Shown here: positions 2,751 through 9,450 of the stretch, piece by piece | Layout of the letters: each line of letters starts with the position of its first letter | How positions within the stretch are numbered: position 1 is the stretch's first letter | Origin: Darksidea phi | Lineage: Eukaryota > Ascomycota > Dothideomycetes > Pleosporales > Lentitheciaceae | NCBI GenBank assembly: GCA_030770425.1 | Contig: JASJFT010000183.1 | Coordinates: 1-64,000 of the forward strand | Length of the DNA: 64,000 bases | Direction of reading: 5' to 3' | Notes under the pieces: generated by a model | Told to the model about the DNA's origin: nothing | Seen by the model: the letters and a program-made list of their open reading frames with translations, nothing else | Databases searched by the model: none | Program-made: the position numbers and the translations under genes

Positions 2751-2860
2751 ACAACCCTCTGGCGGGTGCGGGTCGGCCGGCTTCCTTGCTAGCGGTGGCG
2801 GGTTGGAAGTATTTTGCATTCTCACTCGCATGCTATAAATGCCGCTAATTAGGTTGCCGC
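2751..2860 (+). repeat. Left copy of a 110-bp inverted repeat
   Basis: This segment is repeated in inverted orientation at 6388-6497 with, by my reading, three mismatches in 110 bases. It is GC-rich (it contains GGCGGGTGCGGGTCGGCC) and also holds ATTTTGCATTCTCACTCGCA. The pair brackets the whole HET gene and its tandem array. It could be a terminal inverted repeat of a roughly 3.75-kb element or two copies of a dispersed repeat. I found no clean target-site duplication outside the pair. Confidence 0.85.
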
Positions 2861-3069
2861 CAAGGCCCTTGTTTGGCTGAGTAAGGTGGGGAAAATTAGA
2901 AATAGGCAACAGCCAATTCAACTACCCCGCTATCTCGATACACCATCTTCAAATCATCATTCAACCCTGAGAGTAAAAGTGTAACTCGAATTACAGCCGG
3001 TTAGTATAGAATATTATAAGCTAGAGGAAAGCATTATAATCTATCTTAGCCGCAGTTGAACTAGTTCCG

Positions 3070-6058
3070 ATGGACCAGGAAACATGGGAAGACACCCTGT
3101 TTCGGGTAAGCGTTGCTAGAAATTAGACGTTGTTCTAGCTGACGGAGTAAATACAGCGTGTGAGCATTCAAGTGGCATAGTCTAACCCTTGTTTTAACAT
3201 TTTGGACTATAGGAAGTAAGTCGACCTGCGAATATTGATATATGAGGCTGCTACTGATCCTGGTTTGTTTGGTGGTGTAGCGAGTAAGTTGACCTGCGAA
3301 TATTGATATATAAGGCTGCTGCTAATCCTGGTTTGTTTGGTGGTGTAGCCTGTAAGTTGACCTGCGAATATTGATATATAAAGCTACTACTGATCCTGGT
3401 TTGTTTGGTGGGGTAGTTAGTAAGTCGGCCTGCGAATATTGATATATAAGGCTGCTGCTGATCCTGGTTTGTTTGGCGGTGTAGCGAGTAAGTTGATCTG
3501 CGAATATTAATATATGAGGCTGCTACTGATCCTGGTTTGTTTGGTGGTGTAGTTTGTAAGTTGACCTGCGAATATTGATATATGAGGCTGCTACTGATCC
3601 TGGTTTGTTTGGTGGTGTAGGATGTAAGTTGACCTGCGAATATTGATATATAAGGCTGCTGCTGATCCTGGTTTGTTTGGTGGGGTAGTTTGTAAGTCGA
3701 CCTGCGAATATTGATATATAAGGCTGCTACTGATCCTGGTTTGTTTGGTGGTGTAGTTTGTAAGTTAACCTGCGAATATTGATATATAAGGCTGCTGCTA
3801 ATCCTGGTTTGTTTGGTGGTGTAGGATGTAAGTTGACCTGCGAATATTGATATATGAGGCTGCTGCTGATCCTGGTTTGTTTGGTGGTGTAGGATGTAAG
3901 TTGACCTGCGAATATTGATATATGAGGCTGCTGCTGATCCTGGTTTGTTTGGTGGTGTAGCGAGTAAGTTGACCTGCGAATATTGATATATGAGGCTGCT
4001 GCTGATCCTGGTTTGTTTGATGGTGTAGGGAGTAAGTTGGCCTTTGCATGTATATGGATGAACATGAACTACTAATTATGTAGCCTGACGCCTGGCATTC
4101 CTCCTTTGACAGCACGTTCGCTCAAGGTTTCTTTGAAGCGTTGCCAGCTGGTGCGCTACGGACGCAGCATATCCCAGTCCAGTGTTGCAATTGCTGTAGC
4201 TCCATTTTAGCTGCTAACTGCGACACTGATCTTTCCGATGTCCGTGCAGCTGAAAAGGATTGTCAATTCTGCGCTCTACTCCGTACACTTGTGGCCCACG
4301 TCATCAATGACGATGGACGCGATGTTCGAATCGTTCGTGAAGGGCCGGCGTTGAAATTAGGGAGCAATGGGCAACATGTTCTCTGGGTATGTTCTAATCC
4401 AGGTCAGTGTTCCCAGTTCATGTGTATTGGGCAAGCCCCTTGCTTACTGCATTATTTTGCCACAAAAGGCTCGGTCGATACAAAGACCCACATCCAGACA
4501 GAAGTACTAGTTCCTCCTGAAGCTCTCAGCTCTGCACGGTTTGAACTACTTCGCACATGGCTTCGTTGGTGCGATCAACATGAACACTGCAACATCCGTG
4601 ACAGTAAATCGAACCAATTGCTTCCGAACAGGCTTCTCTGGGTCGGAGATCCAGATGATCAGCATTACGACCCTACTTCATTGCGTCTAAACACCACTAC
4701 AGATAAAAGTGGAGGAAAATATGTTGCGTTATCCCATTGTTGGGGCGAACTTCCAACGGAAGTCAAGAAACACTTTTGCACAACCTCGGATAATATTAGC
4801 CGCCGGAAGGGAGGATTCAGTTTCTGGGAACTGCCAAAGACTTTCCAAGACGCTGTTAAAGTGACTCGAGAACTTCGTATACCGTACATTTGGATCGACT
4901 CACTCTGCATTATCCAATACGGTGACAATGGTGAAGATTGGAAACGCGAAGCTGGACGCATGGAAGAGGTCTTCTCTGGGGCTTACTGTACAATTGCTGC
5001 AACTTCGGCCTCAAATTCGTACGCAGGATTCCTTCAGCCACATATGAAACATGATTATATTCATGTTCAGGATGCCTCAGGCAATCGATTCTATGTCTGT
5101 GCTGGTAGGGACGATTTTGAGAATGATGTGGAGAAGGCTCTGCTCAACACACGAGCATGGGTAATGCAAGAAAGAGTCTTGTCACGACGGACTATCCATT
5201 TCAGCGCCAATCAGGTATACTGGGAATGCGGTGAAGGGGTTTACTGCGAAAATCTTACAAGGCTGCTGGAAGGGTAAGTGCTCGACCGCATCTGACTGTT
5301 TAACGCTTTCCTAACTTGGGCATTTCTTTAGCTCATACCGAAAGAGGTACTTTATGCTTGACCCAGACTTTCCGGAGCGGCTCCTTACGTCGGGCTATCG
5401 ACGTACTATGGAATTCATTCATTTTCTTTCCCAGGACTATTCGATGCGTGGGCTTACAGAGAAGACTGACAGATGTGTGGCAATATCTGGATTAGAAGCC
5501 CGTATTACACGTGCTTTAGGCTGCAAAAGCAGATATGGTATCTTTGAGAGGTACCTTCACAGGAATCTCCTCTGGCAGCCGTCTGATGTCAAGATGGAGG
5601 AGATTGTGTACAAAGACCGACAAGTGCCATCTTGGTCATGGATGGCATATAGTGGGGGCATTCGATTCCTTGACAAAGATATCCGGTTTGGTACCGTTGA
5701 TTGGATTCGCAACCTCCGGTTCCATGACGTATGCGAACATGCATTGATCGCCGACGTAGGGAAATTCCGGGATGGAATGGAACTAGATGGCAACTATGCC
5801 GTCTTAGATTCTGGCGGAATGGAAAGAGGGCGGGCACAATATGATGTTGAGAGGGGCAAGGACGAGGAACGCAGGGGTCTTTGTGAAGAACGATGTGTTG
5901 TCGTTGGAAGGAAGTCTAGGAGAGGGAAGAACGGTGTTAAAGACTACCACATATTAGTTGTCAGACCGACCAGAGATGGCGAGTATAGGAGGGTTGGAGT
6001 TGGGCTGATTCAGAGTGACTGCGTAGTGAGAGAGAGGCTCAGCGTGCGGGTCGTCTGA
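3070..6058 (+). CDS. HET-domain protein with a candidate 13-microexon leader
   Basis: HET proteins act in fungal non-self recognition and heterokaryon incompatibility. The main exon 4084-5273 carries a Cys-rich start (CCNCCSS, CQFCALL) and the HET core: ALSHCWG, then IPYIWIDSLCIIQ, EAGRMEEVFSGAYCTIAATSA and TRAWVMQERVLS. A 58-bp intron (5274-5331) leads to the last exon 5332-6058. There is no ATG between the in-frame stop at 4081 and about codon 100 of the main exon, so the start must lie upstream. The best model starts at ATG 3070. Exon 1 is 3070-3105 (MDQETWEDTLFR). Intron 3106-3212 has donor GTAAGC, branch CTAAC and acceptor TATAG. Then come GAA (3213-3215), twelve units of a 65-nt intron plus one codon, and a last intron at 4032-4083 (GTAAGT, ACTAAT, TATGTAG). 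All junctions are phase 0, giving 664 codons with stop. One long intron from 3106 or 3216 to 4083 would also keep frame. HET identity is certain; the 5' splicing is inferred. Confidence 0.85.
3216..4043 (+). repeat. Tandem array of twelve 68-bp units, each an intron-like 65-mer plus a triplet
   Basis: Units start at 3216, 3284, 3352, 3420, 3488, 3556, 3624, 3692, 3760, 3828, 3896 and 3964. The period is exactly 68, and a partial thirteenth copy (GTAAGTTGGCCT) begins at 4032. All twelve units begin GTAAGT, carry CTGAT or CTAAT about 25 bases before the end of the 65-mer, and end GTAG. The remaining three bases vary: CGA (units 1, 4, 11), CCT (2), TTA (3), TTT (5, 7, 8), GAT (6, 9, 10), GGA (12). 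Differences inside the 65-mers are few and mostly transitions. Because 68 is not a multiple of three, unspliced copies would scramble the frame, so the array is not a repeat-protein exon. Confidence 0.95.
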
Positions 6059-6970: not shown

Positions 6971-9450
6971 ATGGCAGATTCAGAACAGCCGGCGCAGCCC
7001 CCCGCTGAAGGCGTGGACAACCTCCACAGGGATCCCGTCACCGGAGAAATGATATCCAAGTCTGAATGTACGATGTGCAGCTCTATTTACGCTATAGGCG
7101 AGCACTAACGAAGCATAGTGAAGCGCCGACAGAAGCAACGCGACAAGGAGGCTAAGAAGGCCGAGAAGGAAGCCTCCCTACCTGCCCGACCGAAGAAGGA
7201 GAAGAAGGATGACGGACTGGACGAGCTCAATCCCAACGTTGGTGCCAATTGCTGAGAAAACAACCTACCGTGGCTAACCTGGGACAGCAATATTTCGAGA
7301 TCCGCAGCAAGAAGATCATGGCGTTGAAGGAATCACGAGATCCGACACCGTACCCCCACAAGTTTCAAACCAACACCAACCTCCGCGAGTTCGTGGAAAA
7401 GTACAAGGGCTTGCAGAAGGGCGAGACACTCGAAGACACGGAGGTTCGCGTCGGAGTTCGGATGTGAGGGCCTCTTATCCTTTCTTTCGAATGGCTTGCT
7501 GATATATTCAAAGTCTCACCAAGAGGGAGTCTGGCAATGCTCTCAAGGTATGCCCGCCTATCGTGGACAGCATCGTATATGCTGATTGGCTTTCTAGTTT
7601 TACGTCACCAAGCAAGAGGGCGTGACTGTGCAGATAATGTGCCAACTGCAGTACGCCTCCGATAAGGTTCCCTTCGAGAAGCAGCACGAGCACCTTCAGC
7701 GCGGAGACATAATCGGCGTGGTGGGATTCCCCGGTCGAACGAATCCGAAGAAGGGTGGCGAAGGAGAGATTTCCATCTTCGCTCGAGAGGTCATCTTGCT
7801 CACACCATGCTTGCGTATGCTGCCAACCGAACACTTTGGATTCAAGGATCAAGAACAGCGACATCGACAGAGGTTCCTTGATCTTATCATGAACGACTCA
7901 ACCCGCGAAACCTTCGTTACAAGAACCAAGAGTGAGTATCTCTAGCTACCCGATTGAATGACCGACAATACTAACGATCACTTAGTTGTCAAGTACATTC
8001 GCAAGGTGAGGACAACAGGATTGCTATGCGGTGACAGATACTCACATCTCCTAGTACTTTGACGATCGGGACTTCCTCGAAGTGCAAACTCCAATGATGA
8101 ATAAGATTGCTGGAGGGGCTACTGCTCGGCCATTTAAGACATTCCACAATGAGCTCGGTATGGAACTCTTCATGCGGATAGCGCCCGAACTGTATCTCAA
8201 GGAGCTTGTTGTGGGCGGTCTGGAGCGCGTCTACGAGATTGGCCGTCAATTTCGAAACGAGGGCATTGACCTCACCCATAATCCCGAGTTCACTACTTGC
8301 GAGTTCTATATGGCTTACGCAGATGTCCACGACGTCATGGAGATGACAGAAGAGCTTGTCAGCGGCCTGGTACTTGCCGTCAAGGGTACCTACGAGACAG
8401 AGTACCATACACAAGGCGGCGAAACTTACAAGGTCAACTGGAAGGCGCCATGGCGGCGAGTCGACATGATTCCCGAACTTGAGCGATGTACCGGCGAGAA
8501 GTTCCCTCCGGCCTCTGAACTACATACCGAAGAGACGAACAAATTTCTGAAGAAGGTGCTTGAGAAGGTTAGTCGCATATGTTCGGCATTTCGACCACCC
8601 GTAATTGACAGGATCACAGCAAGGTCTCGAGTGCTCACCTCCTTTGACGAATTCGCGGATAATTGACACACTAGTTGGCGAGTATATCGAAGAGACCTGC
8701 GTCAATCCGACCTTCATCACAGGTAAGTGCTCAAACATGAAACTCTCTCCGCTTGTATAAAGCTAATATGATGTCTTCAAACCAGGTCACCCTGAAGTGA
8801 TGAGTCCTCTTGCCAAGTATCACAGAGACACTGTAAGTTGACCCTGCCTTCCTGTTTCCCCTAATTCTAACCCGATTTAGCCGGGTCTCTGCGAACGCTT
8901 TGAAGCCTTTGTCTGCAAGAAGGAGATTTGCAACGCATATACAGAGTTGAACGATCCCTTTGATCAGCGAATGAGGTTTGAAGAGCAGGCGAACCAGAAG
9001 GCGCAAGGTGACGACGAGGTGAGTCTAGCGCCGTTGCCGTTCATGGTACTGTTGCTGACTCAATCTAGGCACAGCTAATCGATGAAACCTTCTGCCAATC
9101 TTTGGAATATGGTCTACCGCCGACGTAAGTTATGGACCCAGAGCATCACAGCGTACTCTACTAACAAAAGCTAGTGGAGGATGGGGAATGGGTATTGACC
9201 GACTGTAAGAATCGCCCGCATACACAATATTCCACAATCGACTGACATCTTCTAGGGTCATGTTCCTCACGGACAACAACTCCATCAAGGAGGTCCTTAC
9301 ATTCCCGTTCATGAAGGACGTCGCTGAGGATAAGAAGGGAAAGACGGCGGCGGAGGTAGTCGGCGTAGAGCCACGACCTGAAGAGGGCATTCGTAAGCGC
9401 TTCATATCAATGCTGCGATCCGTCTTTAACCTATTCCAGCGCACAAATGA
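6971..9450 (+). CDS. KRS1: Lysyl-tRNA synthetase, cytosolic, class IIb
   Basis: It charges tRNA-Lys with lysine. The 14-exon model gives 605 codons with stop: 6971-7067, 7119-7237, 7288-7463, 7514-7547, 7598-7931, 7986-8005, 8055-8567, 8620-8722, 8786-8832, 8881-9018, 9069-9124, 9175-9204, 9256-9392, 9440-9450. The order is as expected for the family: a Lys-rich N-terminal extension (KKEKKDD), the OB-fold anticodon domain ([20 protein letters not shown]), then class II motif 1 ([15 protein letters not shown]), motif 2 ([18 protein letters not shown]) and motif 3 ([10 protein letters not shown]). Introns are about 45-63 bp, most with GTAAGT/GTGAGT-type donors and CTAAC/CTGAT-like branches. The last intron (9393-9439) leaves a three-residue final exon; reading through it instead would add a different short tail. 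It converges on the hexokinase gene. Length and motifs fit the eukaryotic cytosolic enzyme. Confidence 0.95.

Follow-up and report, generated by a model that had tools for sequence, protein, structure and literature searches.

A predicted array of single-codon exons in front of the HET domain in a gene of Darksidea phi

A 64,000-nucleotide stretch of Darksidea phi DNA (assembly GCA_030770425.1, contig JASJFT010000183.1, positions 1 to 64,000; here called the window) carries a HET-domain gene whose 5′ region consists of an array of 65-nucleotide (nt) intron-like segments, each followed by one codon. Judged from the sequence, these segments are probably removed unit by unit, so that a short variable peptide would precede the HET domain, for which a role in self/non-self recognition is predicted. 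The window locus is labelled C94, and C471, C108, C329, C35, C223, C455 and similar labels denote other contigs of the same genome. In the sequence this reading is supported by the unit plan with its constant phase 0, by canonical splice signals, by two intact paralogs (C471 and C108) and a relic (C329), by an unrelated gene of the same plan (C35) and by a more distant HET gene whose introns have become unlike one another (C223). The single-codon exons had already been proposed in a first-pass annotation, and comparison supports them well: besides the two paralogs, C35 and C223, the variability of the codons in the HET arrays and the gene models of other fungi speak for them.

Organisation of the gene

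The 5′ part of the gene (3070-4083) reads as an ATG exon, 14 intron-like segments and, between these, 13 triplets, all in phase 0, and runs into the HET exon. The first-pass description of this array was exact, base for base. The gene is composed of the following parts:

3070..3105, plus strand: exon 1, MDQETWEDTLFR, 36 nt, with ATG, phase 0
3106..3212, plus strand: first intron, 107 nt, unique sequence, GTAAGC...TATAG, splicing predicted
3213..3215, plus strand: single-codon exon GAA (E), the same first codon as in C471, in C108 and in the relic of C329
3216..4031, plus strand: array of 12 units of exactly 68 nt, each a 65-nt intron-like segment (GTAAGT...GTAG) and one codon
3281..3283, plus strand: single-codon exon CGA (R)
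3349..3351, plus strand: single-codon exon CCT (P)
3417..3419, plus strand: single-codon exon TTA (L)
3485..3487, plus strand: single-codon exon CGA (R)
3553..3555, plus strand: single-codon exon TTT (F)
3621..3623, plus strand: single-codon exon GAT (D)
3689..3691, plus strand: single-codon exon TTT (F)
3757..3759, plus strand: single-codon exon TTT (F)
3825..3827, plus strand: single-codon exon GAT (D)
3893..3895, plus strand: single-codon exon GAT (D), its own 65-nt intron matching that of the next unit in every base
3961..3963, plus strand: single-codon exon CGA (R)
4029..4031, plus strand: single-codon exon GGA (G)
4032..4083, plus strand: last array intron, 52 nt, different sequence, GTAAGT...ACTAAT...TATGTAG
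4084..5273, plus strand: main exon with HET domain (PF06985, E = 8.3e-29, exon residues 213-363)
5274..5331, plus strand: later intron, GTAAGT...TTTAG, at the same place as an intron in C471 and C108
5332..6058, plus strand: last coding exon, ends at the stop

GTAAGT, a CTRAY branch-like site (CTGAT or CTAAT) and TAG are present in 12/12 units, and the triplets follow one another in the order GAA CGA CCT TTA CGA TTT GAT TTT TTT GAT GAT CGA GGA. Tandem Repeats Finder reports the same array with a period of 68, 12.2 copies and a score of 1323. With all array introns and 5274-5331 removed the gene would read MDQETWEDTLFR-ERPLRFDFFDDRG-PDAWHSSFDSTF... and encode 663 amino acids (aa) plus stop, in agreement with the 664 codons counted before. 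The frame is also kept when the whole array is skipped, as had been claimed, since both exon 1 and the exon at 4084 are in phase 0. It had further been stated that the HET exon lacks a suitable ATG; indeed the first in-frame methionine is residue 113 of the exon from 4084, so that translation must start upstream. No signal-like start was seen by eye in MDQETWEDTLFR. The HET domain scores 101.2 bits against a curated cutoff of 22.5, which makes this a HET-domain gene.

Paralogous arrays in the same genome

The genome (51.35 Mb in 477 contigs) was searched with the unit of the window. At least 21 DNA matches were obtained, all of them in the arrays of C94, C471 and C108 or in the C329 relic. The C471 gene begins with exon 1 MVQETWEDSLFK, continues with GAA and 21 codons separated by introns of 62, 64 or 65 nt, and has an intact frame of 643 aa; by eye, its exon 1 differs from that of C94 by four silent and three amino-acid changes in 12 codons. 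C108 has exon 1 MEHLQFT, GAA plus 19 codons and array introns of uniformly 65 nt; its frame is intact over 633 aa. The array codons translate to EYLVVRDAYARDAYLEEVRAVD in C471 and to EDDRDDDEYGYDYRFGEDER in C108, and both arrays are, like that of C94, closed by a shorter, different intron. The relic (C329, L011 120-520) is a decayed copy of a C108-type gene start with GAA and two units only.

Compared with the HET exon of the window, identity is 55 % for C471 and 52 % for C108. The units of these two loci are 71-77 % identical to the window units, yet exactly 3 nt are left at 52/52 junctions of the three arrays. All 52 array introns end in the acceptor TAG, and the donor GTAAGT occurs in 12/12 introns of C94, 21/21 of C471 and 17/19 of C108. 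In C471 the codons CGA GAC GCA stand after units 5-7 and again after units 10-12, with introns 5/10 and 7/12 one base apart in each pair; this block duplication of units together with their codons indicates that tandem exchange is at work.

The last observation bears on the origin of the array. In an improbable alternative, the codons were contiguous first and introners were inserted between them, so that the triplets would be unrelated by descent rather than diversified. The introns are alike and the triplets near-random, as such a history would have it, and introner-like elements are known in Dothideomycetes (PMC4457414). However, the spacing is exactly 3 nt in the HET arrays, the C471 block duplication with its codons points to tandem duplication, and among the at least 21 DNA matches none is a single unit copy away from the arrays and the relic of C329.

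A pattern search for GTAAGT-N{40,69}-TAG-NNN-GTAAGT gave 59 matches genome-wide versus 1 in a backward-read control. Four arrays hold 52 of the 59 (C94 12, C108 16, C471 21, C35 3), and seven are scattered. When the exon was set to 4 nt the pattern matched twice (control 9), and with 6 nt three times (control 4). The version with a GTATGT donor gave one match versus three in the control and revealed no additional array in the genome.

Variation of codons and introns within the arrays

The mean pairwise difference among the triplets is 0.68 in C94, 0.63 in C471 (computed on 18/21 units, three units of other length being dropped) and 0.50 in C108, compared with 0.06, 0.13 and 0.19 for the intron bodies, which are thus 81-94 % alike, and 0.02, 0.05 and 0.04 for the splice signals. 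Only 2 (C94), 0 (C471) and 93 (C108) of 20,000 random draws of three columns reached the triplet value. The kind of change differs as well: transversions make up 0.76, 0.81 and 0.58 of the differences in the triplets of C94, C471 and C108, versus 0.10, 0.11 and 0.14 in the intron bodies, where 86-90 % are transitions. Units 10 and 11 of C94 have identical 65-nt introns and carry GAT versus CGA, and in eight overlapping pairs of C94 units with at most one difference in 65 intron bases, 17/24 triplet bases differ. We infer that the codons have probably been shuffled and diversified, while the introns were homogenised or are simply young; selection may have favoured codon diversity.

None of the 52 triplets in these three arrays begins with A, although 21-25 % of all array bases are A; the acceptor context or selection may account for this.

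Retention of a single array intron brings in an in-frame stop in 12/12 cases in C94, 19/21 in C471 and 19/19 in C108, and the other two C471 introns shift the frame, which accounts for all 52 introns of the three HET arrays. This would suit a splicing-load brake: the triplets would be spliced, their identity would be irrelevant and, with so many introns of which any retained one brings in a stop or shifts the frame, less of a dangerous cell-death protein would be made. We regard such a brake as rather unlikely: it predicts neither a codon variability above that of the intron bodies nor the absence of A-first codons in the HET arrays, and C35, by its reading, is not a HET gene.

The same plan in unlike sequences

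The pattern search also brought up a gene outside the HET family:

L070 3877-5520: C35 gene, small, probably secreted, proline-rich protein, with tandem 77-nt introns

It has an exon MRAFAVLVAMMVAAVIAAPNVQSSSDLETR with a signal peptide by eye, followed by 17 one-codon exons and one two-codon exon (CCTGTT); the last exon would, by eye, give NVRFRRHPSTDV and a stop. The codons are mainly CCT (CAA AAA CCT CCT AAA CCT TCT ACT CCT AAA CCT ...). The 77-nt introns are quite unlike those of the HET arrays in sequence, and a DNA search with the C35 unit gave at least eight matches, in C35 only.

HET loci were scanned for chained AG-NNN-GT junctions on both strands, with about 1.5 kb on each side, at 20 of 111 HET matches; three further stretches were retrieved. 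Chains were found at 5/20 loci (C94, C471, C108, C223 and C455). A scan of one strand had given C94, C471 and C455, and C223 and C108 were seen only once both strands were scanned. C223 (L025) looks like an aged version of the array. There, after an exon with the phase-0 end ...IVHRNRQ, the triplets AAC GAG TAT AGA TTT ACC CCG lead, again in phase 0, to LDDKWEYTSDT.... Six AG-NNN-GT junctions stand in a row, separated by introns that are 49-75 nt long and no longer resemble one another, and a seventh (AAC) has an AAG acceptor. Under a fixed rule (donor GT[AG]NG, acceptor [CT]AG, intron 44-100 nt) the longest chain in C223 is 6 at an exon length of 3 and at most 1 at every other length from 1 to 15; it drops to 4 under a stricter rule that requires a branch site. 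The longest chain in 96 window segments of 1,300 nt was 1 at length 3 and 2 at any length from 1 to 12 (2/98 segments were left out since they hold the array); shuffling C223 1,000 times gave a longest chain of 1. Repetition of sequence cannot explain a spacing that is kept between unlike introns, and this is the main reason to think that the exons are real. C455 (L026) shows by eye four one-codon exons, TAT, AAT, ATC and TTT; this chain scores 1 under the fixed rule, so that one-codon exons there are unproven and suggestive only.

Both C223 and C455 have an extra open region upstream of the HET part. In C455 it gives a partial protein-kinase match below the cutoff (24.6 versus 31.7 bits), and the putative one-codon exons are located between this region and HET; the same profile scan found no such match in the upstream region of C223.

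The arrays might in principle not be intronic at all, being either coding on the other strand or a neutral satellite before a gene with its start further downstream. Across the C94 array the minus-strand frames contain just 2-7 stops, with an open stretch of 274 aa at 3251-4075, and those of C35 are stop-poor too (3-8). Against these readings stand 11-16 minus-strand stops per frame in C471 and 19-22 in C108, a 68-nt unit that is not a multiple of 3, the conservation of the exon 1 amino acids with silent differences and the lack of an in-frame methionine before residue 113 of the next exon. Both versions were rejected on these grounds and are very improbable.

Homologs in other fungi

The homologs considered comprise the best 120 of 2,419 and 15 from a second search, 135 in all. 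The named species among them we take to be Pezizomycotina; the rest are metagenome or assembly contigs. The protein P0005 of Phaeosphaeriaceae sp. PMI808 starts MDQETWKDSLF, with MDQETWKDSLFW as the counterpart of exon 1, and then reads as YEAAANPAVFGGVG and YKAAANPTIFGGVG. The segment YKAAANPTIFGGVG corresponds to one reading frame of the intron unit; in the window, by eye, units 2 and 9 read YKAAANPGLFGGV and unit 10 YEAAADPGLFGGV in this frame. The presence of this frame inside homolog proteins indicates that in other fungi the gene models include translated array sequence. One fixed pattern detects such a trace in four of the 135 homologs listed, namely P0005 and P0008 (both Phaeosphaeriaceae sp. 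PMI808), P0020 (Macroventuria anomochaeta) and P0071 (Melanomma pulvis-pyrius), and a similar trace was seen by eye in P0045 (Pyrenophora tritici-repentis) and P0052 (Decorospora gaudefroyi).

P0017 is an uninterrupted frame of 619 aa on a contig of 2,106 bases. It is without the conserved later intron and its sequence would fit a spliced transcript, which it perhaps is. Its start reads MVQ-DRDRVVRYEER-YNNW; all 11 residues of the middle stretch belong to the ten amino acids encoded by the 52 array codons, with a chance of about 0.004 as estimated from the rest of the protein for a stretch picked by eye. In P0021 the corresponding count is 12/12 (chance about 0.003) and in P0028 only 10/13, these stretches being likewise picked by eye. 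The AlphaFold2 model of P0017 has a mean predicted local distance difference test (pLDDT) score of 88, with residues 1-10 below 50; the N-terminal peptide is probably short and disordered. When this model was compared with the PDB by Foldseek, 580 matches had E <= 10 but not one reached E <= 0.001 (50 matches listed), and so no fold-based function follows for P0017. Pfam (E <= 0.01) found no domain other than HET in the exon 4084-5274 and in P0017, P0069 and P0088, the last exon (5332-6058) lying outside the scan; P0021 has HET and one further match below its cutoff. A query with the N-terminal residues 1-120 of the C471 reading yielded 194 candidates, none at E <= 10.

A tree was built from 124 rows, nine from the own genome and 115 of the 135 homologs; 20 were dropped because of short overlap, P0071 among them. 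The eight array rows (two were labelled by eye) are spread over several subclades of one group of 87 rows, and the two chain rows lie in another. The clustering was not clearly better than in shuffles, with 55/500 as low for arrays and 64/500 for chains.

Points against single-codon exons

Several observations weigh against the splicing of single codons or weaken its support. Some concern the triplets. Their lack of stops is weak evidence: column shuffles expect 2.4 stops and give none with P = 0.05, which bears out the earlier remark that the absence of stop triplets proves little. Near-identical unit pairs carry the same codon in C471 (two pairs) and C35 (two pairs), and C108 has no such pair. 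A-first codons do occur in C223 (AAC, AGA, ACC) and C35 (AAA, ACT). The triplet variability of C35 is raised (0.36), but another stretch of the unit reaches 0.45 and 490 of 20,000 random column sets reach the triplet value. Others concern the signals and their distribution. In 16/21 introns of C471, 4/19 of C108 and 7/17 of C35 the stretch from the branch-like region to the acceptor contains an AG. The two-strand scan showed no chain at 15 of its 20 HET loci, and on eight HET stretches the fixed rule gave 6 for C223, 1 for C455 and C104, and 0 for C75, C379, C50, C412 and C57. Among the homologs, those on short contigs, e.g. P0003, P0004 and P0010, begin inside the protein.

Finally, removal of the array as one whole intron also leaves an intact frame, as exon 1 is in frame with the exon at 4084 without the triplets, and P0007 of Lepidopterella palustris is modelled with MGAEKWKDSSFQ joined directly to YDGW and no peptide between them. 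Both agree with the view that the whole array is one long intron which holds an old minisatellite, the triplets never entering the mRNA. We consider this unlikely. The triplets of the HET arrays vary 2.6 to 11 times more than the intron bodies, mainly by transversions, and the splice signals less than the intron bodies. Furthermore, C223 retains the one-codon spacing with introns unlike each other, and C35 has the same plan in another sequence.

Surroundings of the gene

The gene is bracketed by an inverted repeat, and copies of about 80-150 nt flank the array HET gene in 3/3 intact loci:

2751..2863, plus strand: left arm, 113 nt, brackets the gene, with related copies elsewhere in the genome
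6385..6497, minus strand: right arm, 96 % complementary to the left arm
L009 3835-3915 and 7835-7978; L010 2016-2133 and 6226-6366: inverted repeat arms of the C471 and C108 loci (~70-75 %)

The array HET genes may have spread as cargo of an element resembling those with terminal inverted repeats. Within the main exon, the stretch around ~4404-4470 reads as coding (QCSQFMCIGQAPCLLHYFATKG) and sits where C471 and C108 carry an intron; it may be an intron turned coding or an intron with a poor acceptor. The homolog models P0001 and P0002 begin inside this stretch. The open frames beside the gene at 7213-8666 of the window have, by their motifs, the look of a lysyl-tRNA synthetase.

A possible source of peptide diversity

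If the triplets are spliced in, the following mechanism may be envisaged. The units would have arisen through tandem duplication of an intron together with a codon, and their number would keep growing or shrinking by unequal exchange. The spliceosome would recognise each short intron by intron definition and join the codons. As the first-pass annotation proposed, removal may proceed in 5′ to 3′ order, and isoforms that differ in the number or choice of triplets may arise. Since the exons are of one codon and each acceptor lies downstream of all earlier donors, the frame would be kept on skipping any set of units; both the length and the sequence of the peptide could therefore change, through exchange of DNA or through splicing, while the protein stays intact. 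Codon diversity may be favoured by selection, as at the few diversified codons of the HET-NACHT-WD40 repeats of Podospora, and the peptide may be the part of a HET-domain cell-death protein that provides specificity or tuning, with a conceivable role in allorecognition. In its most general form, which we put forward tentatively, this would be a new way to encode a hypervariable peptide. A spliceosomal intron would form the conserved part of each minisatellite unit and a single codon its variable content; recombination, together with splicing in order or with skips, could then alter an N-terminal recognition peptide one codon at a time and always in frame. Such a system would recur in several HET genes of Pezizomycotina and have originated independently in the small-protein gene C35.

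Several known systems are similar in part. The micro-exon genes (MEGs) of Schistosoma have exons of 3-81 bp, introns up to 5 kbp, alternative splicing and variable, secreted proteins (PMC10526429). The window gene shares with them a run of in-frame very short exons, 13 of 3 nt as predicted from sequence. It differs from them in that its 5′ introns are of 52-107 nt, with near-identical ones in tandem, each array exon is one codon and the product is a HET protein. The hnwd genes of Podospora are allorecognition HET genes with tandem repeats under concerted evolution, in which four codons per unit are positively selected (PMC2873952). The pattern of codon variation in the HET arrays would fit diversifying selection in a tandem unit. 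However, the hnwd repeat is a coding WD40 repeat, whereas in C94 the repeat is an intron with one coding codon per unit, and unlike in fungal NLR and hnwd proteins no NACHT, NB-ARC or WD40 was found by Pfam in the exon and the three homologs scanned. Because of its short, tandem introns and the lack of NACHT and WD40 in the scanned parts, the gene is a member of neither the hnwd nor the MEG class.

Introner-like elements are near-identical spliceosomal introns that have multiplied in unrelated genes of a fungal genome; in Zymoseptoria tritici other intron duplications, including tandem ones within a gene, make up less than 1 % of the single intron gains (PMC4457414). In contrast, the C94 copies lie in tandem at one place, each with a codon, and dispersal in unrelated genes was not seen among the matches obtained. 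Stwintrons are nested introns with splice sites in unusual order, and zero-nucleotide recursive splice sites leave no exon (PMC13149111); unlike in both, three bases stay between the introns of C94. No run of single-codon exons was found described in titles and abstract beginnings by a literature search that covered few subscription journals, and the first-pass annotation had known of no gene with a run of 3-nt exons either. Exons of very small size are in themselves already known, as are MEGs.

Gene predictors seem unable to model such an array and yield a false protein, so that similar genes may be overlooked elsewhere. If the triplets are spliced in, up to 22 consecutive 3-nt exons would be joined correctly, which would set a new limit for exon recognition and offer a natural test bed for intron definition. 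The array would then also be an unusual generator of diversity, in which introns and not coding repeats provide the homology for recombination and bear most of the mutational load, and in which each exchange alters whole codons. This raises the question of whether fungal allorecognition genes may tune their specificity by splicing single codons.

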